Shown here in pieces: positions 2,958 to 64,000 of a stretch of 64,000 nucleotides of DNA. The notes under the pieces were generated by a model, which had not been told where the DNA came from, made no database searches, and saw nothing but the letters and a program-made list of their open reading frames with translations. The position numbers and the translations under genes were made by a program. Every line of letters starts with the position of its first letter. Positions within the stretch are counted from its first letter, which is position 1. The stretch is taken from contig NZ_QEWP01000002.1 in NCBI RefSeq assembly GCF_003121985.1, positions 1 to 64,000 on the forward strand. Reading direction: 5' to 3'. The stretch is from Marinilabilia rubra. Its GTDB lineage: Bacteria > Bacteroidota > Bacteroidia > Bacteroidales > Marinilabiliaceae.

Positions 2958-2985
2958 ATCCTCTGATTTATGTTGGTACAAAAAT

Positions 2986-3017
2986 ATATAAACATATAGA
3001 ATTTCACATGTTTATAT
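2986..3017. promoter_or_regulatory. Operator-like inverted repeat upstream of the CoADR fusion gene
   Basis: Ten-bp perfect arms ATATAAACAT (2986-2995) and ATGTTTATAT (3008-3017) flank a 12-bp spacer. It sits about 30 bp upstream of the chosen start at 2957, a typical place for a dimeric repressor site. Which regulator binds is unknown. Confidence 0.45.
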
Positions 3018-3084
3018 GTATCATTTAAAGAAAAAGTTCTTTAAATAGTGTTAATAACCAACTTCAGAAGAAAGCAAACAACAC

Positions 3085-9334: not shown

Positions 9335-9361
9335 GGCGTATATTTTTAAAATTGATAAAAA

Positions 9362-9459
9362 TTTTAAGACCTCAACGAGGGCCCCTCGCAACCAACAACC
9401 TGCAGGGGTCATAGTAATAAGCGAACTAACCACAAGGGCCCTCGTCTTTGGTCTTAAAA
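9362..9459. promoter_or_regulatory. Large two-segment inverted repeat between nifK and nifE
   Basis: Two perfect 10-bp arm pairs are nested: TTTTAAGACC (9362-9371) with GGTCTTAAAA (9450-9459), and ACGAGGGCCC (9375-9384) with GGGCCCTCGT (9436-9445), separated by 3- and 4-nt internal loops. The leader of nifE transcripts would fold into a long hairpin ending about 28 nt before the nifE start. Candidate roles are partial termination or mRNA processing that sets NifEN below NifDK. The rest of 9460-9659 shows only TTAGAT-like heptamers (about 9521-9565). Confidence 0.6.
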
Positions 9460-9659
9460 ACCTGGATTAAACACCAAAAGCAGCATCAAAAACAATTCGA
9501 AAGAAATTATCACTTAATAGACTGTTAGATTTTTAGATACAAGATCTAAGATGAGTCGTAAAATCTTGAACACATGACTCTTATTAAAGCAATCGATTAT
9601 AAATAAAATACCAACAGACTATCATTTATTCGAAGATTGGAATTCACCTCAGTTAAGCA

Positions 9660-33439: not shown

Positions 33440-33519
33440 TTCTTTCAATCAAAAGTCTTTGAACTTGTAGCTGTATTCACCTATATCAGATTAATAATAC
33501 AAAAACCAGCCTCTATGAA

Positions 33520-33901
33520 ATGTGACATGAAATTTTCAACTTGTCCACAAGAGTGCTTAAACCTTTTCCAAGAGGTATTTTAATGAATCCAATTGTTAAT
33601 ACGTTGGAAATAGGGTAGCCAAATATCATCAAATTGTTCAGGCGCACAAAACGTTGAATCCTGTGTTTCAAAATCGGTACGGCAAAGTTAGATGACATCA
33701 ATTCCCACCGCTTCCATAAAATCCTCTTCTACCACTAAGCCTTTGTTAAGGTTCAGTGGCAGGTATTTTTCTTTTCCCCAGGCAATAATATTCCCTTAAT
33801 TTCTCTAAGATTCCAACGGTTGGAGCTAAACCCATATCGAATACAACCTTATCGGGTTGCTTATGGTTTAACGTTTGTATTAATCGTTCTCTTGAATTCA
33901 T
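33520..33901 (-). pseudogene. Truncated remnant of a URO-D-type methyltransferase gene
   Basis: The minus-strand sequence matches parts of the intact gene at 39941-41197. 33703-33901 corresponds to its first ~200 bp, including the start codon. 33520-33702 corresponds to about 40230-40423. The two parts meet at ACATCAAT (33695-33702), which occurs at both deletion ends in the intact gene (40416-40423 and 40979-40986), implying a 563-bp deletion at 8-bp microhomology; the frame is also shifted. The C-terminal part is missing. It lies directly downstream of a GH13 gene. Confidence 0.85.
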
Positions 33902-39940: not shown

Positions 39941-41197
39941 TCATCCATTAAATTCATGGATAGCGTTAATCATGGCAACCAAATTGTCAATCGGGACATC
40001 AGCCTGTATATTATGTACTGTGTTAAACACAAACCCACCGTCTTTAGCAAAAATTTCGCAATGGCGCAATACTTCTTCCCTTACTTCTACCGGTTTACCG
40101 TAAGGTAGTGTTTTTTGCGTATCGACTCCTCCTCCCCAAAACGTTAAATGCTTACCATATTTCTCTTTCAGAAACTTTGGATCCATTCCTGCAGCATTCA
40201 CCTGAACCGGATTGATAATATCGAAACCAGAATCAATAAAATGCGACATAAATGTTTCAACGGCCCCACATGAATGTTTAAAGGTTTTCCACGGCGTGTT
40301 TTCATGAATCCAATTGTTGATGCGTTGATAATATGGCACCCAGATATCAGCAAATTGTTCAGGAGCGCAAAACGTTGAATCCTGTGTCCCAAAGTCTGCA
40401 CCGCAGATATAAATGACATCAATATTATCGCCTATTTCGGCATCAAACCTACGAAGGTTTTCAATAGCCAGCTCGCTCTGCCGATCAAACACTTCCTTAA
40501 TTAGGTCGCTACGCATCAGTGTACTCATGTACCATTCTGCCACACTTCTAATCCCCTTGGGGTCGGCCAGATTCATTCCAGGAATCAAAGCGATATCTCC
40601 CAATGCTGTTCCACCCAACGCAGCTACTACCCCTTTGTTAGTAGCCCGGGCTAAGGCTGTTTCTTTTTTCCAAAAGGCTAAGGTTTCATCCGATACGGGA
40701 GTAAATTCTTCCAAGTTATCCTCTGCCTTTAATTCCTCTTCCACAATAGTTTTTTGTCTTTCGATGGCATCAAAGAAATAACCACTTTGGGGCATTTTAG
40801 CTGAAGGCGCCAAGGATTCATCTCCCATTGGAAATGACAACAAATCACCCTTTTCATCGGTCTTTGTGCTGAACCCCTGGGGAACCAAGACCTCCTGCCC
40901 CCAAAACGTTTTTACTCCTTTTAACGGAGGTGTGTTCCTGTAGCCAAACAGGTTCCCGTCGCCCCAGGCAGCTGTCACATCAATCCCTATGGCATCCATC
41001 AGGTCTTGTTCTACTAATCCTAGCATTTGGTATGGTTCTATTACTCTTATTGGTCTTTTTTCCAAACCATAATATTCCCTTAATTTTTCTAAAGTTCTTA
41101 CATGAATACCTGTTGTTGGTGTAGATCCCATATCAAATACTATCCTATCTGGTTGTTCATGGTTTAGTGTTTGTATTAAACGTTCTCTTGAATTCAT
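39941..41197 (-). CDS. URO-D-superfamily methyltransferase-like protein
   Basis: A 418-residue barrel protein of the uroporphyrinogen decarboxylase/corrinoid methyltransferase superfamily. It has FKHSCGAVETF (H-x-C, zinc-ligand type), DIINPVQVNAAGMDP, TFWGGGVDTQ and FNTVHNIQADVP near the end; the third zinc-type cysteine of MtaA-like proteins is not obvious. It is not the heme enzyme HemE, whose substrate-binding N-terminus is missing. It heads the operon with the six-hairpin and two GH13 genes, and a decayed duplicate sits at the operon's other end. Inferred role: methyl transfer from a methylated sugar or related compound. Confidence 0.75.
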   Translation of the reverse strand: MNSRERLIQTLNHEQPDRIVFDMGSTPTTGIHVRTLEKLREYYGLEKRPIRVIEPYQMLGLVEQDLMDAIGIDVTAAWGDGNLFGYRNTPPLKGVKTFWGQEVLVPQGFSTKTDEKGDLLSFPMGDESLAPSAKMPQSGYFFDAIERQKTIVEEELKAEDNLEEFTPVSDETLAFWKKETALARATNKGVVAALGGTALGDIALIPGMNLADPKGIRSVAEWYMSTLMRSDLIKEVFDRQSELAIENLRRFDAEIGDNIDVIYICGADFGTQDSTFCAPEQFADIWVPYYQRINNWIHENTPWKTFKHSCGAVETFMSHFIDSGFDIINPVQVNAAGMDPKFLKEKYGKHLTFWGGGVDTQKTLPYGKPVEVREEVLRHCEIFAKDGGFVFNTVHNIQADVPIDNLVAMINAIHEFNG

Positions 41198-48069: not shown

Positions 48070-48918
48070 CTAGATCACGTACTTTTTTCGGTATTCATTT
48101 GGAGAAATCCCTTTTAATTCCCGGAACCTTTTATTAAAATTAGAAAGACTATTATATCCACTTTCAAAGGCAATTTCCGATACGTTTTTATCTGTTTCAA
48201 TAAGCAGTTTGCCAGCATATCCGATACGTATTTGATTTACAAAACTGGAGAAAGTGCGATTAGTGCTCTTTTTGAAATAATGGCAAAAAGCAGAAACATT
48301 CATATTTAAAATCTCTGCAGCAACATTTACGTCCAGTTCATTACTCATATTTTGATAAATATAGTTTAGAACCTTATCAATGCGACGTTTTAGCAATTGC
48401 TGGTTTTTAAAACTAAACGATGATAAAACCTCAAATTTGGAAGAATGAGCTAAATCGTTTAAGATTTGCAGAAGACAAATAAATCTTTCGAAGCCTTCCA
48501 GCTCTAATATTTTTTTAAGCTTCTTTTTTAAGGAATCAGATAACTCTCCAAAAAAGACTCCATTATCTGCTTGTGACAACAGTCTTGTGACTTCCTTAAA
48601 CTCAACCAAATCTCCAATACGATCAAAAAAAAGTTCCTTACTAAACTGAATCACTACTGCATCAATCTCATTGTTTTGTATCCAGCAGTGGGGAAGGTTC
48701 TCGCCGACCAATACCAAATCATTTTTCTTAAAAAAACCGATATGGTCTCCAACAAATCTTTTACCCTCCCCCCGTGTAATAATAACAATCTCAAACTCCG
48801 GATGAAAGTGATAGGGTCTGTATTCTTGTTGGTTTTTGTGCTCGATAACCTTAAATGATGAATTTTTATTCTTGTCTATCTTTTCGTAAGAAGGTTTCAT
48901 ATAAAAGATTTTGGACAT
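48070..48918 (-). CDS. AraC-family regulator with cupin sensor (copy 2)
   Basis: A 282-residue paralogue of the regulator at 41578: cupin domain (YHFHPEFEIVIITRGEG ... VGENLPHCW) and AraC DNA-binding domain (VNVAAEILNMNVSAFCHYFKKSTN, KNVSEIAFESGYNSLSNFNKRFRELKGISPNEYRKKY). Divergent from the plus-strand corrinoid/GH13 operon at 49080 and upstream of the GH43 operon on the same strand; either or both may be its targets. The start may alternatively be at 48900. Confidence 0.85.
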   Translation of the reverse strand: MSKIFYMKPSYEKIDKNKNSSFKVIEHKNQQEYRPYHFHPEFEIVIITRGEGKRFVGDHIGFFKKNDLVLVGENLPHCWIQNNEIDAVVIQFSKELFFDRIGDLVEFKEVTRLLSQADNGVFFGELSDSLKKKLKKILELEGFERFICLLQILNDLAHSSKFEVLSSFSFKNQQLLKRRIDKVLNYIYQNMSNELDVNVAAEILNMNVSAFCHYFKKSTNRTFSSFVNQIRIGYAGKLLIETDKNVSEIAFESGYNSLSNFNKRFRELKGISPNEYRKKYVI

Positions 48919-49079: not shown

Positions 49080-50081
49080 ATGACAAAATTAGAAATATTC
49101 AACCAGTTGGTTAATGAAGGAAAATCATCTGATAAAGTTATATTCCGGCCTATTTTAATGCAATTTGCGGCCGAATATATAGGTAGTAACTATGGCGAAT
49201 TCGCTGCTGATTATAAAGTATTAGCAGAAGCCAATTACCGATGCTTCGAAGACTTTGATACCGATATGCTTGGATTAATTTCCGACCCCTACCGTGAAAC
49301 AAGTGCTTTTGGAGCAAAGGTTAAATTTATCAAAGACGGTGTTCCCAGATGTGAAGATCACATTGTAACATCTATTAACGACATTAAAAATCTTAGAAAT
49401 CCAGATGTTACTAAAACTGAAAGAACGTTGGATAGAATCAAAGCCGCAGAATTACTCTCTAAAAAAACACAGGGGAATGTTCCTATTATCGGTTGGGTAG
49501 AAGGCCCATTAGCTGAAGCATGCGATTTAGCGGGCATGGATAAGATGCTCATGAACCTGATGATGGATCCTGATTTTGCCAACCTATTGATGGATAAATG
49601 CCTTGACACAGCAAAAGATTTTGCAAAAGTCCAAATTGATTCAGGCTGTCATATTATTGGTATTGGTGATGCCGTATGTTCACAAATTGACGCTATGACT
49701 TATGAAACCTATGTAAAGGAACGACATAAAGAATTGATATCTTACATCCATGAGTTGGGAGGAAAAGTAAAATTACATATCTGTGGCGATACCAGTCACT
49801 TATTACCTCAGTATACCGAACACAATCTGGACATACTTGATTTGGACTGGCAAGTTGATATGGCACATGCGCGAGAAATACTGGGCGAGAAAGTTATTCT
49901 GTGCGGAAACCTTGATCCTACCATTATCATGAGCAAGACTCAGGATGAAGTCTTCCAGTTAAGCAAGGATATCGTTGAAACATATAGAAACGAACGCGTG
50001 ATCCTGTCTGGTGGATGTGAGATTTCAGCTTTAACGCCATATGAGAACTTAAAAGCCATGAGTATGGCAACTAAATCATAA
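49080..50081 (+). CDS. MtaA/MtbA-like URO-D-superfamily methyltransferase
   Basis: A 333-residue zinc methyltransferase-like protein. It has the complete zinc pattern: LHICGDTSH (H-x-C) and a late cysteine in LSGGCEISALTPYENL, as in MtaA/MtbA, which move methyl groups between a corrinoid protein and a thiol or other acceptor. It is closer to those than to HemE. It opens an operon with GH13 (16 bp downstream), MFS porter, corrinoid protein and activation proteins. Probably transfers a methyl group from a sugar-derived substrate to the corrinoid protein, or from it to an acceptor. Confidence 0.8.
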   Translation: MTKLEIFNQLVNEGKSSDKVIFRPILMQFAAEYIGSNYGEFAADYKVLAEANYRCFEDFDTDMLGLISDPYRETSAFGAKVKFIKDGVPRCEDHIVTSINDIKNLRNPDVTKTERTLDRIKAAELLSKKTQGNVPIIGWVEGPLAEACDLAGMDKMLMNLMMDPDFANLLMDKCLDTAKDFAKVQIDSGCHIIGIGDAVCSQIDAMTYETYVKERHKELISYIHELGGKVKLHICGDTSHLLPQYTEHNLDILDLDWQVDMAHAREILGEKVILCGNLDPTIIMSKTQDEVFQLSKDIVETYRNERVILSGGCEISALTPYENLKAMSMATKS

Positions 50082-50097
50082 CCAAAAAATATCAGCT

Positions 50098-51741
50098 ATG
50101 TTAAGGTTTTTATTTATATGCGTTGCGATATTCTCTTTTTGCTTCACCAACATGGTGCAAAGCCAGAATAAAAAGGATAATAAAGGATGGCACGATGAAA
50201 TCATCTATCATGTTTTCCAACGCAGCTTCTATGATTCAAATGGAGATAAATATGGTGACCTGAATGGTTTTATTCAGAAGCTGGATTACCTGAAGGAGTT
50301 AGGAGTAACTACTATTTTATTTACGCCGCTTTATGAATCTGATTTCTACCATAATTACTTTCCAACTGATTATGCGAAAATTGATCCGGAATATGGTACG
50401 ATGGAAGAATATATTGCTTTTGTCAAGGCAGTACATGAAAAAGACATGAAATTTTTGATGGATATGGAAACCCAGTATGCACAAAGTGGTCATATCTGGT
50501 TCGATGATTCTTATCGAAATCCGCAATCTCAATATGCTGATTTTATTTATTACTCAGACAGTGCTCATCAATATCCTGAGCAAATTTTCATGCCGACCAA
50601 ATCGGAATTATTCGATTTTAACCTTTGGCCAGGTAAAAAACGCAACATTGTGTTTTTAGACCTTAATAATACAAAGGTTAAACTATGGATGAAAGACTTT
50701 TATGCCTTCTGGGTCGATCCTAATAAAGATGGAAAATTTGATGATGGTGTAGACGGCTTCAGGATTGATCATATTATGGATGATCTGGATTACAAAGGCT
50801 TGTTTGTAAATATGTATTCAGAGTTCTGGAATCCTATTTTTAAACATTGTAAAAATATCAATCCTGACTTGTTTGTTTTAGGCGAACAATCCAATTGGAA
50901 TCATTATGGAGATAAAATGATAAAGGAAAGTGGTGCCGACGCGTCTTTTAGCTTTCCATTACGTTTTGCGCTTGCCGGTAGCAAAGGCGTTCACGACATG
51001 TACACGGATCCTGATAAGGAGGGAGTAAATATGAATCCCTACAGAATCATCAAAGAAGTACAGGCAACCATGCAACGATTTAGTGATGACACCTATAGTA
51101 TTAACTTCTTAGAAAATCATGATACCAATCGCTGGGCAAGTGTTGTCAACAATAACAACAAACAAATCAGAATAGGTGCTGTATTAAACCTTCTCTTACC
51201 TGGGGTTCCTTCCATCTATTATGGTCAGGAATTAGGCATGTCAGGTACAACAGGTATTTGGAATTCAGATGCTAATCACATTCCTGTTCGTGAAGCTTTT
51301 CCCTGGAGTGCCAATCCTCATGCAGATGGGATGGCTGCCTTTTATGAGAACACGGGAGAATGGTGGGATAACTCAATATATGTCAATGGTGTGGCAAAGC
51401 AGATTTCATTATCTAATCAGATGAGTGATCCCAATTCATTGTGGCACCTTTATAAGAGCTTAATCAATATACGTAAATCCAATCCTTCTTTGATGTTTGG
51501 AGATTTCACCCCAATTGAATCAGTACCTTTTGAGATATTAGCCTATTCAAGAATCTATGAGAACAATGAAGTTACAATTGTCCTCAATTTATCAAATAAG
51601 GAAATCACGATTGAAATGCAATTAAATGGCAAACAGTTGATTAACGAGGGCGCTACCCTTAAAAATAAAAAGTTAATACTTAAACCTTATAGCTTCTTAG
51701 TAACTAAAAGCACTAAAAATGAACAGTTCAAAAACATCTAA
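50098..51741 (+). CDS. Secreted GH13-family enzyme with atypical region I
   Basis: A 547-residue alpha-amylase-family protein with a signal peptide (FLFICVAIFSFCFTNMVQS). Catalytic residues are visible in DGVDGFRIDHIMD (nucleophile Asp), FVLGEQSNW (acid Glu) and FLENHDTNRW (third Asp). Region I, normally D-x-x-x-N-H, reads FLMDMETQYA, so the usual Asn-His is absent. Its end overlaps the MFS gene by 23 bp, and a methyltransferase gene ends 16 bp upstream, linking alpha-glycoside cleavage to uptake and methyl transfer. A subfamily on unusual alpha-glucosides is likely. Confidence 0.85.
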   Translation: MLRFLFICVAIFSFCFTNMVQSQNKKDNKGWHDEIIYHVFQRSFYDSNGDKYGDLNGFIQKLDYLKELGVTTILFTPLYESDFYHNYFPTDYAKIDPEYGTMEEYIAFVKAVHEKDMKFLMDMETQYAQSGHIWFDDSYRNPQSQYADFIYYSDSAHQYPEQIFMPTKSELFDFNLWPGKKRNIVFLDLNNTKVKLWMKDFYAFWVDPNKDGKFDDGVDGFRIDHIMDDLDYKGLFVNMYSEFWNPIFKHCKNINPDLFVLGEQSNWNHYGDKMIKESGADASFSFPLRFALAGSKGVHDMYTDPDKEGVNMNPYRIIKEVQATMQRFSDDTYSINFLENHDTNRWASVVNNNNKQIRIGAVLNLLLPGVPSIYYGQELGMSGTTGIWNSDANHIPVREAFPWSANPHADGMAAFYENTGEWWDNSIYVNGVAKQISLSNQMSDPNSLWHLYKSLINIRKSNPSLMFGDFTPIESVPFEILAYSRIYENNEVTIVLNLSNKEITIEMQLNGKQLINEGATLKNKKLILKPYSFLVTKSTKNEQFKNI

Positions 51742-53083
51742 TTATATATACTGGGTAACCTTTGTTGCCATTAATGGTGGATTCCTATTTGGCCTAAATA
51801 TGGCTGGTATTTCCGGGGCAATTTCCTTTTTAAAAGAGCAATTTGCATTAAGTGACTTAAGCCTTGGCTTTACGGTCAGTTCCATCATGTTAGGATGCTT
51901 AATAGGAAGTTGGTTTGCCGGTGGTTTTAGCGATAAATATGGAAGAAAAAAGGCATTGATCGTAGCCGCCATCCTCTTTATTGTATCTGCACTGGGCTGT
52001 GCCTTGTCGCAATCTACAATCGTCTTTATCACATCCAGAATTATTTCCGGATTAGCGGTAGGAGCCGTTTCTGTTTTATGTCCCACTTATATCTCAGAAA
52101 TTGCACCGGCCGATAAAAGAGGAACACTGGTGTCGATGCAGCAATTTGCTATCGTAACAGGTATCTTATTAGCCTATGTTTTTGATTATTTTTTATTGGA
52201 TTTCAATTATCAATGGCGCTTAATGATGGGGATACCAGCCGTCTTCGGCCTTTTTTTCCTTACTTTCTTGTTGAGTTCATTCCCTGAAAGTCCGCGTTGG
52301 CTATTCAATAATAATAAGGAGGAGAAAGCTAAAAAGATTCTATCGAACATTTTTGGAAGTGATTACGCCGAAAGCGAGTTAAAAAGCATGAAAGATTCAA
52401 CCAATCAAAACGAAACCAATTCAGCTAAGTTGAGTGATTTATTTAATGGACGGATTTTTAAAGTCCTTGTTATCGGTACGTTCTTAGCCATTTTTTCACA
52501 GATAACGGGGATCAATGCGGTTATTAACTACGCCCCTACCATATTTCAAAAAATTGGATTTGGTGGCGGCTCTGCCTTGATTCAATCAATTTTTATTGGT
52601 ATTATATGTTTGGCATCTACTTTTATAGCTATTTGGCTTATTGATTTAAAGGGACGTAAAGTATTATTATTATTCGGCTCAGTAGGAATGACATTAGGCT
52701 TAGCCTATCTGACTTATTCCTTTATGTTTCCCAATAATAAATCACTAGGCATACTGATTTCAATTTTAGGTTATGTGGCCTTTTATTCTGCCTCAATGGC
52801 ACCTGTTATGTGGGTAGTGAACTCTGAATTGTTTCCTAATTTATATCGTGGTATTGCCATGTCGTTCGCAACGGCTGTCAGTTGGATTTTTACCATCCTA
52901 ACTGTTCAGTTCTTCCCATACATGCTGAATCAATTAGGAGGACACCTTACTTTCGGATTTTTCGGCGCATTTAGTTTGCTATCACTTCTCTTTGTACTCA
53001 AATATATTCCTGAAACAAAAGGTAAGTCTTTAGAGGAGATCGAGAAAGAAATGTTATCAGATAAAGTTTCATCTAATAATTAA
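51719..53083 (+). CDS. MFS sugar porter (copy 1)
   Basis: A 454-residue inner-membrane transporter of the sugar porter family with 12 predicted helices: GGFSDKYGRKKAL in loop 2-3, PESPRWL after helix 6, QITGINAVINYAPTIF in helix 7 and PETKGKSLEEIE at the end. It imports a monosaccharide or short sugar, likely with protons. It overlaps the GH13 gene by 23 bp, so it probably takes up that enzyme's product. Closely similar to the porter at 59327. Confidence 0.92.
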   Translation: MNSSKTSNYIYWVTFVAINGGFLFGLNMAGISGAISFLKEQFALSDLSLGFTVSSIMLGCLIGSWFAGGFSDKYGRKKALIVAAILFIVSALGCALSQSTIVFITSRIISGLAVGAVSVLCPTYISEIAPADKRGTLVSMQQFAIVTGILLAYVFDYFLLDFNYQWRLMMGIPAVFGLFFLTFLLSSFPESPRWLFNNNKEEKAKKILSNIFGSDYAESELKSMKDSTNQNETNSAKLSDLFNGRIFKVLVIGTFLAIFSQITGINAVINYAPTIFQKIGFGGGSALIQSIFIGIICLASTFIAIWLIDLKGRKVLLLFGSVGMTLGLAYLTYSFMFPNNKSLGILISILGYVAFYSASMAPVMWVVNSELFPNLYRGIAMSFATAVSWIFTILTVQFFPYMLNQLGGHLTFGFFGAFSLLSLLFVLKYIPETKGKSLEEIEKEMLSDKVSSNN

Positions 53084-53242
53084 GAATATTCTGCTTTTAA
53101 ATGTGCATCAGGATAATCCAATGATAAGATAACATATATATCAGACAATATTCTGATTGAATAAGAATATTGATTTTCAAATCTTTGCTGTATAATTTCA
53201 GAAAAAACAAGCGCATTATTAACTCATTTATTTACTGAAACC

Positions 53243-53911
53243 ATGGAAAATTTATTAGAAAAGATTGCCACATGTATTGAATTTGGTAAGATAAACAAAG
53301 CCGCTCCTTTCCCTCCTGACATGAAAGGCGAAGACGGTGCTGATGAATTAACCCAACAAGCCATTGAGAAAGGCATAGCTCCGGGGGAAATTCTCTCAAA
53401 CGGATTGATGCCAGGCATGGAAAGAGTAGGTGTCAAATTCCGTGAAAATAAAGTATTTGTACCTCAGGTTTTAATGAGTGCTAAAGCTATGAGTGCTGCA
53501 ATGTTACATTTAAAACCATTCTTTGCTACCGGGGCGGCCGGGCGTAAAGGAACGTTTATTATCGGAACTGTTGAGGGTGACCTGCATGATATTGGTAAAA
53601 ACCTGGTGGCAATGATGGTAGAAGGTAACGGCTACGAAGTTATTGATTTGGGAACCGATGTAAAAGCTGAAAAGTTTATCGAAACGGCTGAGAAATATCC
53701 TAATAGTGTAATTGGCCTATCTGCACTTTTAACAACCACCATGGCTAACATGGAAAAAATAGTGAAATCAGTTAAAGAAAGGAACGCAGACAGAAAAGTA
53801 TGTATAGGTGGTGCTCCCGTTAACCAGGATTTCTGTGACAAAATCGGAGCAGATAGCTATAATCCGGACCCTCAGGGAGTGGTGGAATTTTTAAATACTC
53901 TGGCATCATAA
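53243..53911 (+). CDS. Corrinoid (B12-binding) methyltransferase protein
   Basis: A 222-residue cobalamin carrier. Residues 1-90 are the helical cap domain (ILSNGLMPGMERVGVKF); residues ~100-222 are the Rossmann B12-binding domain with D113-x-H115-x-x-G118 (GDLHDIGKN), where H115 is the lower cobalt ligand, then a central strand segment VIGLSALLTTTM. Same architecture as MtaC/MtbC/MttC. It would accept a methyl group from substrate through a partner methyltransferase. It stands 159 bp after the MFS gene and 59 bp before the next URO-D gene. Confidence 0.93.
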   Translation: MENLLEKIATCIEFGKINKAAPFPPDMKGEDGADELTQQAIEKGIAPGEILSNGLMPGMERVGVKFRENKVFVPQVLMSAKAMSAAMLHLKPFFATGAAGRKGTFIIGTVEGDLHDIGKNLVAMMVEGNGYEVIDLGTDVKAEKFIETAEKYPNSVIGLSALLTTTMANMEKIVKSVKERNADRKVCIGGAPVNQDFCDKIGADSYNPDPQGVVEFLNTLAS

Positions 53912-53970
53912 ACCTGTCAATCTTTGTAAGCCCATAATAATCAGTATTTATCAACTAACGAGTAACTTTT

Positions 53971-55329
53971 ATGAAAGGTTTAGAATTAATAAAAAAAGCA
54001 ATGAAGCTCGAGAAAGTCGAGCGCATACCATGGGTGCCATTCGTTGGTGCGCATGCCGGTAGTCTCCTTGGGCTCACAGCCACTGAATTTCTACAATCAA
54101 CTGGAAAAATAGTAGAAGGTGTTAATAAGGCCATAGAATTATACAAGCCCGATGGTATTCCTGTTGCATTTGACCTGCAGATAGAGGCCGAAGCATTGGG
54201 CTGTAAACTGGCTTGGGCAGATGACAATCCGCCTGCTGTTATTTCTCATCCACTAACAGAAGGATTAACTGTTGATGACCTGCAAGTACCATGCCCTTGC
54301 AAAGGACGCATTCCAATGGTGATGGAAGCAACCAGACAATTAAGGGAACAACATCCTGAAATGGCACTTTATGGATTAATCACCGGTCCTTTTACATTAG
54401 CCCTTCACCTGTTGGGTACCGATATTTTTATGCAGATGATGATGGATCCGGATGCCACCAATAAGTTAATGCGTTTTACAACTGATGTAGCCAAGATGAT
54501 GGCAAGTAATTACATTGAAGCCGGGGCTGATGTGATTGCTATTGTTGATCCGATGACCAGCCAGATTGACCCGATGAGTTTTGAAACATTCGTTTCGCCT
54601 CATGTAAAAGAGATCAATGATTTTATTCGAGAAGCAAACGCATTAAGCTCATTCTTTGTATGTGGCAACGCCCAGCAAAATATTGAAGTCATGTGCCAAA
54701 CCAATCCTGACAATATCTCCATCGACGAGAATATTCCTTTAGACTTTGTTCGTGATATGGCATTAAAGCATAATGTTTCGTTCGGTGGAAATATTAAGCT
54801 GACTGTGGTATTATTAATGGGTGATGAAGAAGCATCGCGCAGAGATGCCCTTGAATGTATGGATATTGGTGGTAAGAAAGGCTTTATACTTGCACCAGGA
54901 TGCGACTTGGCCATGGAAACACCTCAGGAAAATTTAATAGCCATATCCGAACTCATCCATAACGAGGTACTTCAGGGTGAATTAAGAGCTTCGGAAGCCA
55001 CTACCGACAATATTGAATTATTGGATCTGACGAATCATTGGAACAATAAGAAAGTCATCATTGATGTCATTACCTTAGATTCATCGTCGTGCGCACCATG
55101 CCAATACATGGTTAAGGCATTGGAACGAGCATCAGAATCTTATGGTGAGCAGGTTATTTATAAAGAGCACAGCATCAAAGAAAAAAAAGGTGTTCAGATG
55201 ATGGCAACCTTAGGTGTTAAAAATATTCCAACAATTGTAATAGATGGTAACGTGGAGTTTATCTCACAGATACCACCAATCAATGATATCAAGGCTAAAA
55301 TTGATCATTATCTGAAAAACAAAAACTAG
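53971..55329 (+). CDS. URO-D-type methyltransferase fused to a thioredoxin-like domain
   Basis: A 452-residue fusion. Residues ~1-345 are a MtaA/URO-D-like barrel with FVCGNAQQNIEVM and LAPGCDLAMETPQEN; the usual H-x-C appears as F-V-C, so the first zinc ligand of the triad is missing or replaced. Residues ~360-452 are a thioredoxin-like fold with C374-A-P-C377 and the cis-proline region GVKNIPTIVIDG. This pairing suggests a dithiol that accepts the methyl group or keeps the corrinoid or thiol centre reduced. It directly follows the corrinoid protein gene. Confidence 0.8.
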   Translation: MKGLELIKKAMKLEKVERIPWVPFVGAHAGSLLGLTATEFLQSTGKIVEGVNKAIELYKPDGIPVAFDLQIEAEALGCKLAWADDNPPAVISHPLTEGLTVDDLQVPCPCKGRIPMVMEATRQLREQHPEMALYGLITGPFTLALHLLGTDIFMQMMMDPDATNKLMRFTTDVAKMMASNYIEAGADVIAIVDPMTSQIDPMSFETFVSPHVKEINDFIREANALSSFFVCGNAQQNIEVMCQTNPDNISIDENIPLDFVRDMALKHNVSFGGNIKLTVVLLMGDEEASRRDALECMDIGGKKGFILAPGCDLAMETPQENLIAISELIHNEVLQGELRASEATTDNIELLDLTNHWNNKKVIIDVITLDSSSCAPCQYMVKALERASESYGEQVIYKEHSIKEKKGVQMMATLGVKNIPTIVIDGNVEFISQIPPINDIKAKIDHYLKNKN

Positions 55330-55366
55330 CTTACAAATCACTGGTTTGTCAATACATAAACAGTCT

Positions 55367-55398
55367 GATGAAGGTTTCGTCATTATGAAACCTTCATC
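55367..55398. terminator. Hairpin between the URO-D fusion and CobW genes
   Basis: GATGAAGGTTTC (55367-55378) pairs with GAAACCTTCATC (55387-55398). A weak T-run follows, so this is either an attenuator or a partial terminator within the operon. Confidence 0.5.
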
Positions 55399-55424
55399 TT
55401 CGTATAGCTAATGTGAATGATAAA

Positions 55425-56345
55425 ATGGTTTTATTTAATCTTATCACCGGATTTTTAGGAAGTGGCAAAACTACTTTGCTGAAAAACCTATTAAATGAAT
55501 TATCTAAAACAAAGCGCATTGCCATTATACAGAATGAATTTGCGCCAACAGGTATCGACGGAAAAGAATTAAAGCAAAACCATAGCGATTTTAAATTAGT
55601 CGAAATTAATAACGGATCTGTTTTTTGCGTTTGTCAGCTTAATAATTTTGTTCAGCAAATGCAGAAACTAATTCACGATTATCAACCGGAAATCATCTTT
55701 CTTGAAGCCTCCGGTCTGGCTGACCCAATTAGTATTATTGAACTACTTCAAATCAAGGAATTAAATAAACTGGTGACCTTAGATAAAAGCATCTGTTTAG
55801 TGGATGCACCTAATTATTTTAAGGGATTAAAAACTCTGGTTCGTTTTAAGCACCAGATTATGGTAGCCGACAAGATTATTCTAAACAAGATGGATATATT
55901 TAGTGGTAAGCTTAATGATATCGAAGACTCTGTACGTGGCCTAAATCCCTACGGTGAAATACTTCAGTCTCAGTTTGCTCGGGTAAACTGGGAGCAATTA
56001 ACACTGCCAGAATTATCAAAAGGATTAGCAGCTCAAAAACACCTGGGTAAAATATCGGAAGGACTACCAGACATAAAAGCTTGTGTTCTGCGAACACATG
56101 ATAAGATGAAAGAACCTCAACTGTTAAATTTCATCGGTGAGTTACAATTAAAATGTCCACGCATTAAAGGGTTTATTAATCTAGCGGATGGGAAAATCGT
56201 ATCTGTTCACAGCGTTTTTGATAATTATGAAATCAAAGTTATTACCGATTATACAGGTCCGTCCGAATTAATTGCCTTCGGCCATGATTTAACAATTGTT
56301 GAATTAAGAAAAAGATATAGAGAACATATTAAAATCCTTAATTAA
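55425..56345 (+). CDS. CobW-family metal-chaperone GTPase
   Basis: A 306-residue G3E GTPase: P-loop GFLGSGKTTLLKNLL, metal motif region VFCVCQLN (CxC-type, variant of CxCC), switch ILEASGLADP and NKMDIFSG for guanine recognition, plus a CobW C-terminal domain. Family members insert zinc or cobalt into client proteins. I chose the ATG at 55425; a GTG at 55413 is possible. It lies in a corrinoid/zinc methyltransferase operon, one base before the next gene, so it probably loads zinc into the methyltransferases or handles cobalt for B12. Confidence 0.85.
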   Translation: MVLFNLITGFLGSGKTTLLKNLLNELSKTKRIAIIQNEFAPTGIDGKELKQNHSDFKLVEINNGSVFCVCQLNNFVQQMQKLIHDYQPEIIFLEASGLADPISIIELLQIKELNKLVTLDKSICLVDAPNYFKGLKTLVRFKHQIMVADKIILNKMDIFSGKLNDIEDSVRGLNPYGEILQSQFARVNWEQLTLPELSKGLAAQKHLGKISEGLPDIKACVLRTHDKMKEPQLLNFIGELQLKCPRIKGFINLADGKIVSVHSVFDNYEIKVITDYTGPSELIAFGHDLTIVELRKRYREHIKILN

Positions 56346-56346
56346 A

Positions 56347-57042
56347 ATGAAATCAGTTAAGCCGGAACATTTCAGGTTTAATATTAGTGATTTGGATATC
56401 GCTACAAGTGATATTGAAAAAATGGCGCGCATTGGAGACGAGATGCCTTCCTATGATGACTTTCTTCTTTATGAGCTGGATCTTCTCAATAATAATACAA
56501 AGATTGAAGGAGGTTATATTATTCAGCCGGGACAAATAATATCTGATGAGATACATATTAATAACCACATATTCAAAGCAGGTAAAGAAGTAACACATTT
56601 TTTAAGGAAGATGAATCATGCGGCAATATTTATTTGTACTGCCGGTAAAGAAGTGTCAGAAAGGGCCAGACAACTTAATAATGAAGGTCATTTACTTGAA
56701 GCTTACCTTCTTGATGTATTAGGTTCAGTCATCGTTGAGCAGGCGATGGATAAAATGCAAAACATCATCAAAAATCGATTATATGAAAAAGGTTTAAAAA
56801 TAACCAACCGATACAGTCCCGGCTATTGCGAATGGAACGTTATTGATCAACAATTGCTCTTTTCTTTCTTTCCTAATGATTTTTGCAATGTTACACTAAC
56901 CGAATCCTGCTTAATGCAACCGGCAAAAACAGTTAGTGGCATTATTGGAGCAGGCCAAGAAGTAACCTTTCATAAGCACGTTTGTCACTTATGTAACAGT
57001 ATCAACTGTATCTATCGAAATACCCTTGAACGTAAAAATTAA
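56347..57042 (+). CDS. Stand-alone MetH-type activation domain protein
   Basis: A 231-residue protein matching the C-terminal AdoMet-binding activation domain of B12-dependent methionine synthase, without the rest of MetH. Visible motifs: RYSPGYCEW, LTESCLMQPAKTVSGIIGAG and a cysteine-rich end (CHLCNSINC). In MetH this domain remethylates inactive cob(II)alamin with SAM and an electron. As a separate gene it probably reactivates the corrinoid protein. It starts one base after the CobW stop and precedes the RACo-like gene by 10 bp, so translation is likely coupled. Confidence 0.85.
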   Translation: MKSVKPEHFRFNISDLDIATSDIEKMARIGDEMPSYDDFLLYELDLLNNNTKIEGGYIIQPGQIISDEIHINNHIFKAGKEVTHFLRKMNHAAIFICTAGKEVSERARQLNNEGHLLEAYLLDVLGSVIVEQAMDKMQNIIKNRLYEKGLKITNRYSPGYCEWNVIDQQLLFSFFPNDFCNVTLTESCLMQPAKTVSGIIGAGQEVTFHKHVCHLCNSINCIYRNTLERKN

Positions 57043-57052
57043 TCAGAAAATA

Positions 57053-58546
57053 ATGGCCATATTACGTCTTCACGACAACGGACAGATTAAAGAATCCTAT
57101 TTTAAGGAAGGTCTGAGTTTGCTAAAAATATTACATGATCAAAACGTTACTATATCAGCGCCCTGCGGTGGTAATGGCAGCTGTGGAAAATGTAAAGTAA
57201 AGCTTCGTAATATCGGCCTTGTCAGTTCCTGTACCTATTATCCAAATTCCAATATTGAAGTCGTATTGCCCAATCAACGGGAATCACAGATACTCACGCA
57301 CCAGTATCTGCACTCATTACATCTTAAACCAGAACAAAACCTTCTTACCAAGGTGACTGATATGTCAATTGGTTTAGGAATTGACATAGGAACAACCAGT
57401 GTAGTTTTTTATTGGGTGAACCTAATTACCGGGGAGCTTATTAAAAGTATTGGTGTAAGTAATCCGCAAACAAAATACGGTGCCGATGTTATTAGTAGAA
57501 TTTACTATTGCAATAATGAGGAAAACATCAGCACGCTTCAGAAAGCCATACTCAATGCAATCAATCAACAGATTGATAAATTTGTAACGCAAGAAAACCG
57601 ATCCATCAATGATATTGTAAAAGTATCCATAAGCGCCAATACTACAATGCTTCACCTCCTAACTGGTGTTAATCCAAGTTCTATTGCCCTGGTTCCTTTT
57701 AAGGCTGTATTCACAGATGAAAAACAATTAACGGTCGATGAATTAGATATTAAAGCTAATGCAAATGCCCCAATATGCTTACTCCCTTCTCTTTCAGCAT
57801 ATATAGGAGCTGATATTATTGCCGGTTTGGCTTCGCTAAATCCACCTGAAGCAATTAAAAAATATCTTTTTATTGATATCGGCACAAATGGTGAGATGGC
57901 CATCGTTACCAACAACAAAATTTTTTGCTGTGCCGCTGCTGCCGGCCCGGCTTTTGAAGGCGCTAATATTCATTGTGGCATGGGTGCTTTTGATGGTGCC
58001 ATTGCGGTTTTTAACGATGACGGCTATAAAACAATTTCTGATGATAAACCAATCGGTATTTGTGGCTCCGGTTTGTTGGATGCGGTGGCTTATATGCTTA
58101 AAAAAGGCATTATAGGAGCTGATGGCGAATTAAATGAAAACTTCATGGTAGCAACCAAACAGGCATCAGGGAACAATGAAGAAGTTGTTATTACACCCCA
58201 GGATGTAAGAGAAGTACAATTGGCAAAAAGTGCCATATTCACTGGTATAAAAATATTAATGCAGGAAGCTGGTCTTGATTGCCACGATCTTGATGCAGTT
58301 TACCTGGCGGGTGGATTCGGCAATTATATGAACCCGAAAAGTGCTGTAACCATAGGCCTGTTACCTGAAGAAATAGAGAATAAAATTATCACGGTAGGCA
58401 ACACCTCAGGAACCGGTGCCATGCTGCATGTCCTTTCTGATCAATTTATGACCCATGCTAAAACCATTATCCACAAAGCTGAATTGGTTGAACTGGCTAA
58501 TCATCCTGAGTTCGAAATGGAATTTGCAATGAATACATACTTTTGA
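57053..58546 (+). CDS. RACo-like corrinoid reductive activase
   Basis: A 497-residue protein with an N-terminal [2Fe-2S] ferredoxin domain (C38, C44, C47 and C60 in SAPCGGNGSCGKC...C) and a large ASKHA-type ATPase domain (GLGIDIGTTSVVF; LFIDIGTNGEMAIV; YLAGGFGNYM; GNTSGTGAML). This is the architecture of RACo/RamA-like activators that use ATP and an electron to reduce cob(II) to cob(I). I chose the ATG at 57053; an upstream TTG at 57026 would overlap the previous gene. Last gene of the operon, followed by a strong hairpin terminator. Confidence 0.9.
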   Translation: MAILRLHDNGQIKESYFKEGLSLLKILHDQNVTISAPCGGNGSCGKCKVKLRNIGLVSSCTYYPNSNIEVVLPNQRESQILTHQYLHSLHLKPEQNLLTKVTDMSIGLGIDIGTTSVVFYWVNLITGELIKSIGVSNPQTKYGADVISRIYYCNNEENISTLQKAILNAINQQIDKFVTQENRSINDIVKVSISANTTMLHLLTGVNPSSIALVPFKAVFTDEKQLTVDELDIKANANAPICLLPSLSAYIGADIIAGLASLNPPEAIKKYLFIDIGTNGEMAIVTNNKIFCCAAAAGPAFEGANIHCGMGAFDGAIAVFNDDGYKTISDDKPIGICGSGLLDAVAYMLKKGIIGADGELNENFMVATKQASGNNEEVVITPQDVREVQLAKSAIFTGIKILMQEAGLDCHDLDAVYLAGGFGNYMNPKSAVTIGLLPEEIENKIITVGNTSGTGAMLHVLSDQFMTHAKTIIHKAELVELANHPEFEMEFAMNTYF

Positions 58547-60684: not shown

Positions 60685-61494
60685 TTAAGGAACAAAGCAT
60701 TCCCATACTTCTTTTTTTAATTCCGGTTTAGGGACATACAGAAACCTATCAGAATCTTCCTCAAAAAGCTGATAAATCGACTTGCCTTTTTCAATCCCCA
60801 GATTTTCATATTTCCCGGGTTTTTTTTCAATCAAATCAGAATACTCATAATTTTCATTTCTTTGCCAGGTCATATTCCCTTTTTCATCCAAAACGGGGAA
60901 CCAGGCCAAGCCTTTATGCTCTCTGACCTCATCATAATCAAAACTATACTCTCTGATGCACCATGCACCAAATGTAAGAGGTTGATCAGGGTCTGCACTA
61001 ATCGTTGCATGTGCCCAACCTGGAGGTACAATTACAACTTCTCCCGGTTCTGCCTCAACAGCATAGCATCTTCCCGGATTATCCTTTGCAGTTTCCTGCA
61101 TATATATAATGGCTTTCCCTTGCCAAATTTCGTACACTTCCGGGGTGGACATATTGGTATAGGGCGAAATACTGTGAATATGTCCCTGGCTTCGGATAGG
61201 TTCTTTTCCCAATCTCCCTGCAGCATATGTTACAACTCCATAAAGCAGATGTAACTTGTGCAATAACTCTTTATGCTTCTTTTTACCAACATCCATGGCA
61301 ATGCTATAAACAACCTCAGGTCCATCACACCGGGGGTCTTTCAGACTTGCCCTTATATCTTTTAGAAAACGGTTTTCTACTTCAGGGCCGAAGGTATCCG
61401 GTCCATATTCAAATCCTAATCGTTCAGTTTTGGGCAATATATCAAGTCCCGGGTCGAAAGTCATTATTGATTTAACGCTATCATGATTTCTCAT
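60685..61494 (-). CDS. Cupin-type glucose-6-phosphate isomerase
   Basis: A 269-residue protein of the archaeal-type, metal-dependent phosphoglucose isomerase family: RSQGHIHSISPYTNMSTPEVYEI provides H-x-H and the glutamate ligand, and VIVPPGWAHATIS the third histidine. It interconverts glucose 6-phosphate and fructose 6-phosphate. Not the ordinary Pgi fold. It sits between the MFS porter and phosphomannose isomerase, so imported sugar is likely funnelled to fructose 6-phosphate. Confidence 0.85.
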   Translation of the reverse strand: MRNHDSVKSIMTFDPGLDILPKTERLGFEYGPDTFGPEVENRFLKDIRASLKDPRCDGPEVVYSIAMDVGKKKHKELLHKLHLLYGVVTYAAGRLGKEPIRSQGHIHSISPYTNMSTPEVYEIWQGKAIIYMQETAKDNPGRCYAVEAEPGEVVIVPPGWAHATISADPDQPLTFGAWCIREYSFDYDEVREHKGLAWFPVLDEKGNMTWQRNENYEYSDLIEKKPGKYENLGIEKGKSIYQLFEEDSDRFLYVPKPELKKEVWECFVP

Positions 61495-61514
61495 CTGACT
61501 TATAGTTTGAGTAA

Positions 61515-63287
61515 TTATGGTTTTGTTCTTACAAAGGCCTTAATTGTTCCACACCTTTGACCTTTTGATTCCCCGTAAGGTCGAATGGTATATTCTCCAA
61601 CTGCCGCTGGTATTATAAATGTCTCTGCATAATGAACCACAAAAGGTTCAAATGCACCGGTTGGGCTTTCAACAATGGCTTCATGTCCCTCCACTAAATT
61701 TAGAACATTTACTCCATCGTTGGTATTGTGTAACACTGAATCGGTAAACCAGTGGCGGCGGGTTTCAATAAATTCCCGGTTATGAAGTCCGGTACGCTCT
61801 TCAACCCATCCATCTCCTTCTGCCAATCTTTCTACCTGTCCAATAAGGTTTGCCTTAGACCAGGATTCAGCCCTGTTCCACTGAATCACATTTTTGCCAT
61901 GTTCAATATTAATGGGCCGTGGTTTTCCATCCAATCCCATTCTTCCCCAATCGTAAAGCTTAAAAGTAAATATATAAGGTGTTGCACTAATCTCAAGTAC
62001 CATACTATTCGCTCCCGAACAATGAACCGTCCCCGCTGGAATCAATACATGATCGTGTTTTTCTACAGGCCATATCCCAACATGCTTGTCTGCATCAAAT
62101 TTATTTCCTGTATCCTGAGCATGTTGTAATTCCGAAATCATTGCTTCAGGATCCACTCCTTCTTTTAACCCGAGATAAACCACAGCATCCTCGCTGGCAT
62201 CAAGTAAATAGTAACTTTCGTCCTGGGTATAATGCATGCCAAACTGCTCTTGGATGTATTCTGTTAACGGGTGCACCTGTAAGCTCAGGTTGCCTCCCTG
62301 CATGGTATCGAGAAAATCGAAACGAATAGGAAACTCATCACCGAACCTCGCATGCACAGGTTCACCAAGCAATTCATGCGGATGTCGAAAAACCAAATTA
62401 ATTGAAGGGATTTCAAAAAGTTGATTCCCAAATTTTAAATTCAAGCTATTTTCTTCAGGCACACAATCAAAACACCATGCAAAATTTTCCCGGGATTTAT
62501 CCAAGTCGCATATTTCCTTCATCCACTGTCCTCCCCATGGGCCAGGATCAAAAAAAGGAACAACCCTGAAAGGTCTTTGCCCTGCTTCTTTCAACCCTTC
62601 CAACATGGCTTTTCCTGAAATCATTTTTGGCTGGTTTGGAATAACCGTATCCAACACAAAATCCATCCTGTCGAAAAGATTTTTCTTGTGACGGTCGCAA
62701 ACCCTCCAATCAACAAAATAAGCCCGTTTATATTGTAGAGAGCCTTTAAGTATCTTATTACTTACTCCAAGATTGCTTACTTCATCCCTTTTGAATCTTA
62801 ATTGCCCTTCCCAGCGAGGCATATCGGCATAAACCAGCAAATCATAATTTGAGGCAACTAATGTTGCACCCGGTCCATAGACTAAAGTAACCCCTTCATT
62901 GCTGTCCACTTTGGATGTAAGCGCCTGTAACTTTGATTCTTCAAAAAAATCAACAAGATTCAGGCGAGTCATATACCCAAAAATATCATCGTCGGTTACA
63001 TCCGGGTATGTCATCTTATCTATTTCCTCTTCACTTTTCATTGCCTCTTTAGCTAAATAAAAGAAATCATAAGGCAAGTCTTCTTTCAAAGCAGATATTA
63101 TTTCTTCATCATGTACATTCAAATAAGTATCTACTGCTATAACGAATTTTTCCTTTCCATCCGCTCTCTCCGCAATTTGTTTACAGATATTTTCCCAACC
63201 AGTAATAAGCTCATCTTCGTATCCTTTGACTTCCACGGAGGGTGTTTTATCGAAATTTGGTTTTCGCCCCTTTAAATAGTTTGCCAT
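61515..63287 (-). CDS. Class I mannose-6-phosphate isomerase with extra N-terminal domain
   Basis: A 590-residue protein. The C-terminal half (~residue 270 on) is a type I phosphomannose isomerase with zinc-site segments SLQVHPLTEYI and HVLIPAGTVHCSG and FPIRFDFLDTMQGGN. The N-terminal ~260 residues resemble a P-loop kinase-like region (GVTLVYGPGATL) but the Walker motif is incomplete, so it may be inactive. Such long versions are known in this phylum. Converts mannose 6-phosphate to fructose 6-phosphate. Between the ROK kinase (12 bp) and the cupin isomerase (20 bp). Confidence 0.85.
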   Translation of the reverse strand: MANYLKGRKPNFDKTPSVEVKGYEDELITGWENICKQIAERADGKEKFVIAVDTYLNVHDEEIISALKEDLPYDFFYLAKEAMKSEEEIDKMTYPDVTDDDIFGYMTRLNLVDFFEESKLQALTSKVDSNEGVTLVYGPGATLVASNYDLLVYADMPRWEGQLRFKRDEVSNLGVSNKILKGSLQYKRAYFVDWRVCDRHKKNLFDRMDFVLDTVIPNQPKMISGKAMLEGLKEAGQRPFRVVPFFDPGPWGGQWMKEICDLDKSRENFAWCFDCVPEENSLNLKFGNQLFEIPSINLVFRHPHELLGEPVHARFGDEFPIRFDFLDTMQGGNLSLQVHPLTEYIQEQFGMHYTQDESYYLLDASEDAVVYLGLKEGVDPEAMISELQHAQDTGNKFDADKHVGIWPVEKHDHVLIPAGTVHCSGANSMVLEISATPYIFTFKLYDWGRMGLDGKPRPINIEHGKNVIQWNRAESWSKANLIGQVERLAEGDGWVEERTGLHNREFIETRRHWFTDSVLHNTNDGVNVLNLVEGHEAIVESPTGAFEPFVVHYAETFIIPAAVGEYTIRPYGESKGQRCGTIKAFVRTKP

Positions 63288-63299
63288 GTTTTCTTAAGT

Positions 63300-64000
63300 T
63301 TAATTCTTACGCTTATTTTTAATTTTTGTATCTACCAAATATCCCAATCCTAATAAAGCAATATCATCAATCGCCTGCGAAATTTTAATTTGAACTTTGC
63401 CCCATGGTGTCCAGGCATGCTTGTTAATCCAATTTTGCATAAAAGGCACAATAATATCTGCTGATTTCATCACGCCCCCGCTTAACACCAATAACTCCGG
63501 ATCATATGCATGGATCAAATTAACTGCACCTGATGACCAGGCTTTTAACACATTTTCAGTCACTTCTTTGCTTACAGTATCCCCCATTCTATATTCATCA
63601 AACAATACGGCAAAGTCAACATTATCATAGTTATTTAATGAGCTTTGAGCTATATCTGGATGAGACTGAACAATATTATTTAAGTTCCAGGTTGAACCTA
63701 ACGCTTCCACACATCCCATATTACCACAATTACACTTAAAACTATCAAAATTAACCGTTGAATGGCCTCCCAAACATCCAGCCTGATAGTGCTTTCCATA
63801 AAGGAACTTTCCGTTAATTAAAGCAGCACCACCAACACCGGTCCCCAATGTCATGGTTATAATGTTATCGTACCCCTTCCCTACACCGTATTGCCATATT
63901 CCGGCCAATGCAGCTCTTGCATCATTATCAGTTGCTAATACGGCATTCCACTTATCCCTAGCCCACCGATCGAAATTGAAGTGGATTGATTCGTTATATT
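63300..64000 (-). CDS. ROK-family sugar kinase, partial (continues past the window edge)
   Basis: C-terminal ~233 residues of a ROK kinase; the frame stays open to base 64000, so the start lies outside. It shows DNDARAALAGIW, the ATP loop MTLGTGVGGAALING, the zinc motif FKCNCGNMGCVEALGS (CxCGxxGC) and GGVMKSADIIV. It phosphorylates a hexose to its 6-phosphate, which the downstream isomerases convert to fructose 6-phosphate. First visible gene of the kinase-PMI-PGI-porter-HAD operon. Confidence 0.92.
   Translation of the reverse strand, partial: YNESIHFNFDRWARDKWNAVLATDNDARAALAGIWQYGVGKGYDNIITMTLGTGVGGAALINGKFLYGKHYQAGCLGGHSTVNFDSFKCNCGNMGCVEALGSTWNLNNIVQSHPDIAQSSLNNYDNVDFAVLFDEYRMGDTVSKEVTENVLKAWSSGAVNLIHAYDPELLVLSGGVMKSADIIVPFMQNWINKHAWTPWGKVQIKISQAIDDIALLGLGYLVDTKIKNKRKN

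Follow-up and report, generated by a model that had tools for sequence, protein, structure and literature searches.

A corrinoid methyl-transfer operon of Marinilabilia rubra as a candidate modular system for oxygen-independent O-demethylation of methylated sugars

Methyl ethers occur on the sugars of many algal, plant and microbial polysaccharides, and they are a chemically stable obstacle to the breakdown of these polymers. The sole enzymatic O-demethylation of sugars that we found in print, in the portions of the literature covered, requires oxygen; in the excerpted text of PMC10033563, the use of 6-O-methyl-D-galactose by marine bacteria involves genes for a cytochrome P450 (CYP), its redox partners, an alcohol dehydrogenase (ADH) and an esterase. 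Corrinoid systems have been described for other substrates. CdmBCA acts on chloromethane (PMC13222342, in part), and the type 1 mlp clusters, for which 73% of the genera are Firmicutes, were proposed to serve methyl-sulfur or methyl-selenide metabolism (PMC10418091, in part). O-demethylases of the uroporphyrinogen decarboxylase (URO-D) superfamily are already known for aromatic compounds; what is new here is that sugars are the predicted substrates. We describe an eight-gene operon in the first 64,000 nucleotides of contig NZ_QEWP01000002.1 of Marinilabilia rubra (hereafter the window), which belongs to a genome of 5.4 Mb in 59 contigs, labelled G000. On comparative sequence evidence, its best explanation, and a likely one, is a modular, oxygen-independent O-demethylation of methylated sugars.

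The eight open reading frames (ORFs) lie on the plus strand between positions 49080 and 58546, and their Pfam assignments are best matches, each above the curated cut-off. The first encodes MtA1 (49080-50081; PF01208, 204 bits), a protein of URO-D fold and a candidate substrate-specific sugar-ether:corrinoid methyltransferase (MT1). It is followed by GH13 (50098-51741; PF00128, alpha-amylase, 210 bits), a glycosidase with an N-terminal hydrophobic stretch, and by MFS (51719-53083; Sugar_tr, 394 bits; TIGR00879, 379 bits, above cut-off), a sugar porter. The next five genes encode the corrinoid protein CoP (53243-53911; PF02607, B12-binding_2, and PF02310, B12-binding), the URO-D and thioredoxin fusion MtTrx (53971-55329; PF01208 and PF13192, Thioredoxin_3), which is a candidate second methyltransferase (MT2), the GTPase CobW (55413-56345; PF02492, 134 bits), the stand-alone MetH-activation-domain-like protein MetAct (56347-57042; partial match to PF02965, Met_synt_B12, 36.7 bits) and the RACo-like corrinoid activase RACo (57026-58546; PF14574, PF17651, PF00111 and the 2Fe-2S domain Fer2). 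The intergenic distances are, in order, 16, -23, 159, 59, 83, 1 and -17 bp, and the 159-bp spacing between MFS and CoP would allow the genes to be split into two neighbouring transcription units, one of MtA1-GH13-MFS and one from CoP to RACo. A promoter and terminator scan of the operon returned no more sites than shuffled sequence. An earlier note on this DNA had listed the same eight genes, with their identities, their strand and the 16-bp gap and 23-bp overlap among the first three, and the ORF coordinates, Pfam matches and computed spacings bear it out.

AlphaFold models of MtA1 (predicted local distance difference test, pLDDT, 92.9) and MtTrx (pLDDT 91.0) share their nearest structural relative, methylcobalamin:coenzyme M methyltransferase, represented by 4ay7 and 4ay8; the top fold match of MtA1 was the MtaA-type 4ay7 (template modelling score, TM, 0.90; 20% identity) and that of MtTrx was 4ay8/4ay7. 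MtA1 carries the residues H233-x-C235 and C313, which we take to be the zinc motif of the MtaA type (H-x-C...C), in line with the description of this gene as a zinc methyltransferase in the earlier note. In 16 aligned URO-D partners of the core, H-x-C was present in all and the third ligand was Cys in MtA1 and the L124 rows, and His elsewhere. MtTrx has Phe-Val-Cys where MtA1 has H-x-C; the His was replaced in 30/30 sequences, in all of which C231, C311 and C374-x-x-C377 are invariant. The other parts of the core are equally marked by conserved residues: the corrinoid-protein motif D-x-H-x-x-G in 73/73 CoP members, C-x5-C-x2-C in 16/16 RACo members, the CobW CxC cysteines C72 and C74 in 94% or more of the 69 rows, and an RxxxGY-like motif in 45/50 MetAct relatives. 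MetAct ends in CxxCxxxxC, outside the part matched by Met_synt_B12, and a CxxC..C pattern occurs in 50/50 relatives; this may possibly be a metal or Fe-S site. The closest solved structures of GH13 are glucan 1,6-alpha-glucosidase and alpha-amylases, and its hydrophobic N-terminus, judged by eye, makes export likely. In NCBIfam, MetAct fell in no family and CoP, MtA1, MtTrx, CobW and RACo had no match above cut-off; the MtaA/CmuA family TIGR01463 (cut-off 235.4 bits) was not reached by MtA1 (156.7) or MtTrx (156.8). Genes, domains, motifs, predicted folds and the conserved linkages given below are direct observations.

Relatives of MtTrx were collected by scanning one genome per species (84,980 species), and the 80 top-scoring stretches out of 394 were retained. 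Counts out of 81 refer to these loci (L060-L139) and the window; loci L040-L059 share genomes with L060-L139. Genes of the relatives were called mechanically by length, and their families come from Pfam searches of representatives and from sequence clustering rather than gene by gene. The nearest named loci belong to Marinilabiliaceae and their relatives, such as Labilibacter marinus (85% identity). The core was met repeatedly across the Bacteroidota: close to MtTrx we found CoP in 73/81 loci, CobW in 74/81, MetAct in 50/81 and RACo in 16/81, and a URO-D protein other than MtTrx lay at most seven genes away in 35/81.

This additional URO-D protein varies together with the sugar genes around it. 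In a tree of 40 partner proteins and MtTrx, built by a quick method, with several long branches and L120_2 left out, a clade of 15 rows (Shimodaira-Hasegawa-like approximate likelihood ratio test, SH-aLRT, 100) groups the URO-D proteins that stand beside an extra galactokinase (six), those beside a P450 cluster (four) and five others. The extra galactokinase, of GHMP type, adjoins the core in 6/81 loci. In five loci the P450 cluster, made of a P450, a 2Fe-2S ferredoxin and a ferredoxin reductase, is at most seven genes away from the core, and ADH and esterase families join it in four of these. The P450 of L091 gave a full-length match of 604 bits to PDB entry 6g5o ('Cytochrome P450'), which we take to be the Zobellia 6-O-methylgalactose P450; the agreement in gene content given next does not depend on the identity of that entry. 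The cluster matches the gene content published for the use of 6-O-methyl-D-galactose (PMC10033563, as far as excerpted). The oxygen-dependent P450, which the earlier note cited for sugar demethylation in marine Bacteroidota, is more than a separate solution confined to other bacteria, since it lies this close to the core in five loci.

Other partners point to other sugars. RhaT is found in 8/81 loci, seven of which also hold a URO-D protein, and two loci, L051 and L102, have a confirmed rhaM. The URO-D proteins linked to RhaT or rhaM are spread over three clades other than the galactose-type one, so the rhamnose link arose repeatedly or spread. The clade of the L124 URO-D (relatives in L142, L144 and L151) is accompanied by an MFS porter, and the L124 locus includes a mannosidase (GH38), a protein of the GlcNAc-2-epimerase family and a match to GH76 that stays below cut-off. 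MtA1 itself falls in a separate clade of seven rows (SH-aLRT 99).

In L083, MtaB (8213-9589; PF12176, 527 bits) stands between CoP and MtTrx and so fills the slot; its identity was checked by Pfam in this locus only, and L082 holds a 458-aa ORF at the same place. As MtaB is the known methanol-side enzyme, we infer that the variable slot is the methyl-donor side and that MtTrx is the acceptor side common to the loci. MtTrx had also been considered as the donor-side enzyme and was rejected, since it stays the same from locus to locus whereas the donors and the sugar genes beside them change, and since MtaB has a separate slot in L083. Separate runs of CoP, MtaB-like and CobW-like genes were noticed in two related genomes (L171 and L172), and with the MtaB of L083 they suggest possible methanol use in this group of relatives. 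The same observations could be read as methanol use by the window system, in which GH13 or other hydrolases would release methanol from methyl glycosides for capture by the corrinoid core. However, the window operon holds no MtaB (Pfam of the operon genes; the whole genome was not searched for it), a URO-D donor enzyme would be superfluous with MtaB present, and the links to galactokinase, RhaT and the P450 would be left without explanation, so we judge the methanol reading improbable.

The association of the core with sugar genes was further supported by a set of 149 genomes, window genome included, of which 19 encode full-length MtTrx. The galactose-type URO-D is present in 10/149 genomes, all among these 19 (Fisher test, 8e-11 naive and 8e-7 by genus), and the 6-O-methylgalactose-type P450 (E 1e-60) in 5/149, again all among the 19 (2e-5 naive and 1.4e-3 by genus); kinship is handled in these tests only by the genus-level counting. 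At the same threshold, E 1e-60, G000 itself gave no match to this P450. Around the core of 80 loci, galactokinase was observed six times against 0.26 expected and RhaT eight times against 0.18 expected, both expectations being rough, as 3,700 genes per genome were assumed, two collections compared and the loci are partly related (84 RhaT matches were used and a recount gave 82, with 0.18 either way). The pairing also exists away from the core (L169, L170 and L175): URO-D and galactokinase pairs lie far from it in G034 and G049 (89-91% and 75-80% identity to the nearest locus member), and a URO-D and rhaM pair in G025. In G101, the galactose-type URO-D is about 1 kb from the sole galactokinase match of the genome.

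These numbers also bear on the possibility that the genes form a housekeeping or assimilatory module for making methionine, the surrounding sugar genes being incidental in glycosidase-rich genomes. A homocysteine S-methyltransferase (PF02574) is indeed present in 28/81 loci, and in 22 of the 81 it occurs with no URO-D candidate within seven genes. Against such a role, G000 already encodes a full-length MetH-like frame, galactokinase and RhaT exceed the rough expectation near the core, and regulators lie upstream, in 10 loci GntR proteins that carry periplasmic-binding-protein-like domains and in many loci members of the AraC family; we regard a methionine module as improbable.

The homocysteine enzymes nevertheless inform the methyl acceptor, which had been left between folate and a thiol. 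Their presence in the 28 loci makes a thiol more likely than folate. Every one of these 28 loci has the MtTrx form that exceeds 500 residues and is extended at the C-terminus, as do eight loci that lack the homocysteine enzyme nearby. Pterin-binding domains occur in G000 only in MetH and in a 297-residue frame, read as a putative FolP, and no MT2 methylating tetrahydrofolate was found there. No clear stand-alone homocysteine S-methyltransferase was found in G000, where one marginal match reached 21 bits alone and 22.5 with its neighbours. MetH was rejected as part of the window system, being on another contig. The methyl group thus probably flows to a thiol and ends in methionine. Grouping of URO-D, CoP and homocysteine S-methyltransferase can also be seen in CoP-bearing genomes without MtTrx (L160 and L162). 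Among the loci themselves, many of L098-L139 have a Draconibacterium/Prolixibacteraceae form with AraC, CoP, a 540-residue MtTrx, homocysteine S-methyltransferase and CobW; in some, the neighbours include a GntP permease and genes for fumarate reductase/succinate dehydrogenase, and a URO-D donor enzyme is mostly not nearby. In L061, an S-adenosylmethionine synthetase gene (2473-3726) is directly upstream of the AraC, URO-D and core genes.

The system might instead serve methyl-sulfur or methyl-selenium metabolism, the role put forward for the type 1 mlp clusters, which hold several URO-D proteins resembling soluble coenzyme M methyltransferases (SCMTs); MtA1 and MtTrx would then shuttle methyl groups between thiols. 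The parts are the same, namely two URO-D proteins, CoP and an activase, and a folate methyltransferase is likewise missing from the cluster (PMC10418091, in the text available). By fold and by sequence, MtA1 and MtTrx both match the thiol methyltransferase 4ay7/4ay8 best, and HxC...C is present in MtA1. The links to galactokinase, RhaT and the 6-O-methylgalactose-type P450 (neighbours were annotated selectively) would not be expected from a role in sulfur metabolism, however, and we consider it unlikely.

Several observations weigh against sugar demethylation by this core. The zinc motif of MtA1 is that of the thiol methyltransferases MtaA/MtbA, so that MtA1 could be an acceptor-side enzyme, and its match to 4ay7/4ay8 would equally fit a thiol methyltransferase, which is the strongest point in favour of a different role for MtA1. 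No URO-D candidate lies within seven genes in 46/81 loci, some of them owing to short contigs, hence sugars are not the sole input. A URO-D partner is missing from the locus of the P450-linked core of L109, a galactose-clade member (L074) sits among amino-acid genes, and glycosidase neighbours alone prove little in Bacteroidota, which are rich in such genes. In four of the five P450 genomes (G025, G034, G049 and G111; L165-L168), the P450 is apart from the core, with no URO-D candidate in the 14-20 kb around it. MtA1 relatives in L141 and L143 adjoin glycosyltransferase/aminotransferase or arylsulfotransferase genes, not glycosidases; the genome of L141 has CoP but no MtTrx, and the other four genomes in the same genus as the window lack full-length MtTrx. 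As to the tie between the core and glycan genes put forward in the earlier note, it was recovered in other loci, but the core also exists without sugar genes, as with MtaB in the slot of L083 and in the 22 loci with a homocysteine enzyme and no URO-D candidate within seven genes. A consistent lack of sugar genes in corrinoid operons was not what we found (galactokinase in 6/81, RhaT in 8/81, the P450 cluster in 5/81 and glycosidases elsewhere), and the comparison of related genomes gives stronger support than the window by itself to the proposal of that note that a corrinoid pathway would strip O-methyl groups from sugars without oxygen.

We then considered which sugar the window would serve. 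Orthologues of MtA1 (52-58% identity) are present in 4/148 other genomes (G053, G084, G092 and G101). In L058 and L136, a 51%-identical GH13 shares a gene run with a 54-55%-identical MtA1, and a GH31 lies upstream of MtA1; the linkage of GH13, URO-D and corrinoid genes, on which a comparison of homologues had been suggested, is therefore kept in these two loci. In L140, the neighbours of MtA1 are two PF10091 (putative glucoamylase) proteins, presumably GH144, a GH3, a GH2 and an MFS porter, which has 40% identity to the window MFS and lies two genes downstream of the MtA1 orthologue.

A candidate second substrate methyltransferase, UROD3, is encoded on the minus strand of the window (39941-41197; URO-D family, H-x-C motif). 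Two GH13 genes lie nearby, at 33913 and 35873, with one unassigned 696-aa ORF between. UROD3 has 61% identity to a URO-D gene within the corrinoid gene run of L046/L064, beside a GH120-type protein, and the neighbours of its relatives are mixed: GH120 (L094), GH26 and an MFS sugar transporter (L084), alpha-L-fucosidase (L145) and peptidases (L148). Perhaps UROD3 serves the same core from a distance. Further along, at 60685-63908 on the minus strand, are GPI (PF06560), mannose-6-phosphate isomerase-like (M6PI) and ROK-like genes. Their relatives in L083, near the core, have 65%, 64% and 44% identity and lead straight into a gene of the UROD3 clade; the three window genes probably handle the hexose once it is freed. 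Because MtA1, UROD3 and their relatives have GH13, GH31, PF10091 and ROK/M6PI/GPI genes as neighbours, O-methyl glucose or O-methyl mannose is our best guess for the window substrate, one that we hold loosely and only tentatively.

Taken together, these data lead us to lean, with reasonable though not strong confidence, towards a shared core of CoP, MtTrx, CobW, MetAct and RACo that would accept interchangeable URO-D heads for 6-O-methylgalactose, methylated 6-deoxyhexoses, mannoses and glucoses and pass the methyl group to homocysteine or another thiol; in some marine bacteria, where the core stands beside the P450, the same sugar could be demethylated with or without oxygen. The reactions, their direction, the substrates and the acceptor are predictions from gene content. 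In the window, the probably exported GH13 would free a methylated hexose and the MFS porter would import it. MtA1, with its predicted zinc and URO-D fold, would move the O-methyl group to the Co(I) of CoP, leaving the plain hexose for ROK/GPI/M6PI metabolism. MtTrx would then pass the methyl group from CoP to a thiol, with homocysteine/methionine as the most likely end point, and RACo and MetAct would return accidentally oxidised Co(II) to Co(I). CobW may supply or insert metal, and other URO-D genes, such as UROD3 (39941), would connect further sugars to the same core.

Divergently from the operon lies an AraC-family regulator (48070-48918, minus strand; Pfam HTH_18 and AraC_binding), which shares 70% full-length identity with its counterpart in L109, where an AraC gene precedes the P450-linked core. 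G000 has five URO-D-family matches: a HemE-like protein (322 bits), MtA1, MtTrx, UROD3 and one on contig C8. A remnant with 68% identity to UROD3 and four internal stop codons was noticed at 33445-33705 (minus strand) and is probably a decayed second copy of this URO-D gene. As full-length MtTrx was found in 0/4 same-genus genomes (G001-G004), the operon is patchily distributed and may have been acquired.

If the proposed scheme is true, an anaerobic B12 route would explain how sediments might support the use of methylated glycans, B12 supply would be one control on their turnover, and functions would be suggested for 'uroporphyrinogen decarboxylase-like' genes adjoining glycosidases. For the galactose-type clade, a candidate substrate is already known, 6-O-methyl-D-galactose, so that its enzyme can be tested directly.

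When compared with known systems, the operon has two of the marks of three-component corrinoid methyltransferases, a corrinoid protein with DxHxxG and a RACo-type activase; as MT1 beside the corrinoid gene, the URO-D candidate at 49080 would fit by its predicted fold and by the slot that it shares with MtaB in L083. MtaB, which fills the MT1 slot there in the manner of MtaB/MtaC, is of family PF12176, unlike the URO-D proteins of the window. MtA1 and MtTrx resemble the SCMTs MtaA/MtbA most closely in both fold and sequence, and HxC...C is common to these and MtA1, but identity to 4ay7/4ay8 is 20-25%, the scores are below the NCBIfam cut-offs, and MtTrx lacks the His; coenzyme M is not known from these bacteria. 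The P450 6-O-methyl-D-galactose demethylase (Reisky 2018, cited in PMC10033563, seen in excerpt) has the same task as is predicted for the galactose-type URO-D clade, but needs oxygen and yields formaldehyde, unlike the proposed corrinoid route. Type 1 mlp clusters (Kountz and Balskus, PMC10418091, partial text) resemble the window, by gene content alone, in their multiple URO-D proteins, corrinoid protein, activase and lack of a folate methyltransferase; a term search of the main text available gave no occurrence of 'Bacteroid', 'sugar' or 'CobW'. No corrinoid demethylation of sugars was found in the titles and abstract openings of open-licence PMC literature, a partial coverage that makes this weak evidence of novelty. 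The acetogen corrinoid O-demethylases and CdmBCA share with the window a URO-D-like MT1, a corrinoid protein and an activating enzyme (PMC13222342, in the excerpt). Demethylation of methoxyaromatics, as by these acetogen enzymes, might be envisaged: the phenolic O-demethylases OdmB/VdmB belong to the URO-D superfamily, and CdmB, near the O-demethylases, has a URO-D-like fold (PMC10418091 and PMC13222342, both in part). No aromatic-degradation gene was present among the annotated neighbours, however, the partners being sugar transporters, kinases and glycosidases, and we find this explanation highly improbable. In contrast to CdmBCA and the O-demethylases, no tetrahydrofolate-type MT2 was found in the window genome, the window adds a thioredoxin-fused URO-D protein, CobW and MetAct, and the partner genes of its type indicate sugars rather than aromatics or haloalkanes.

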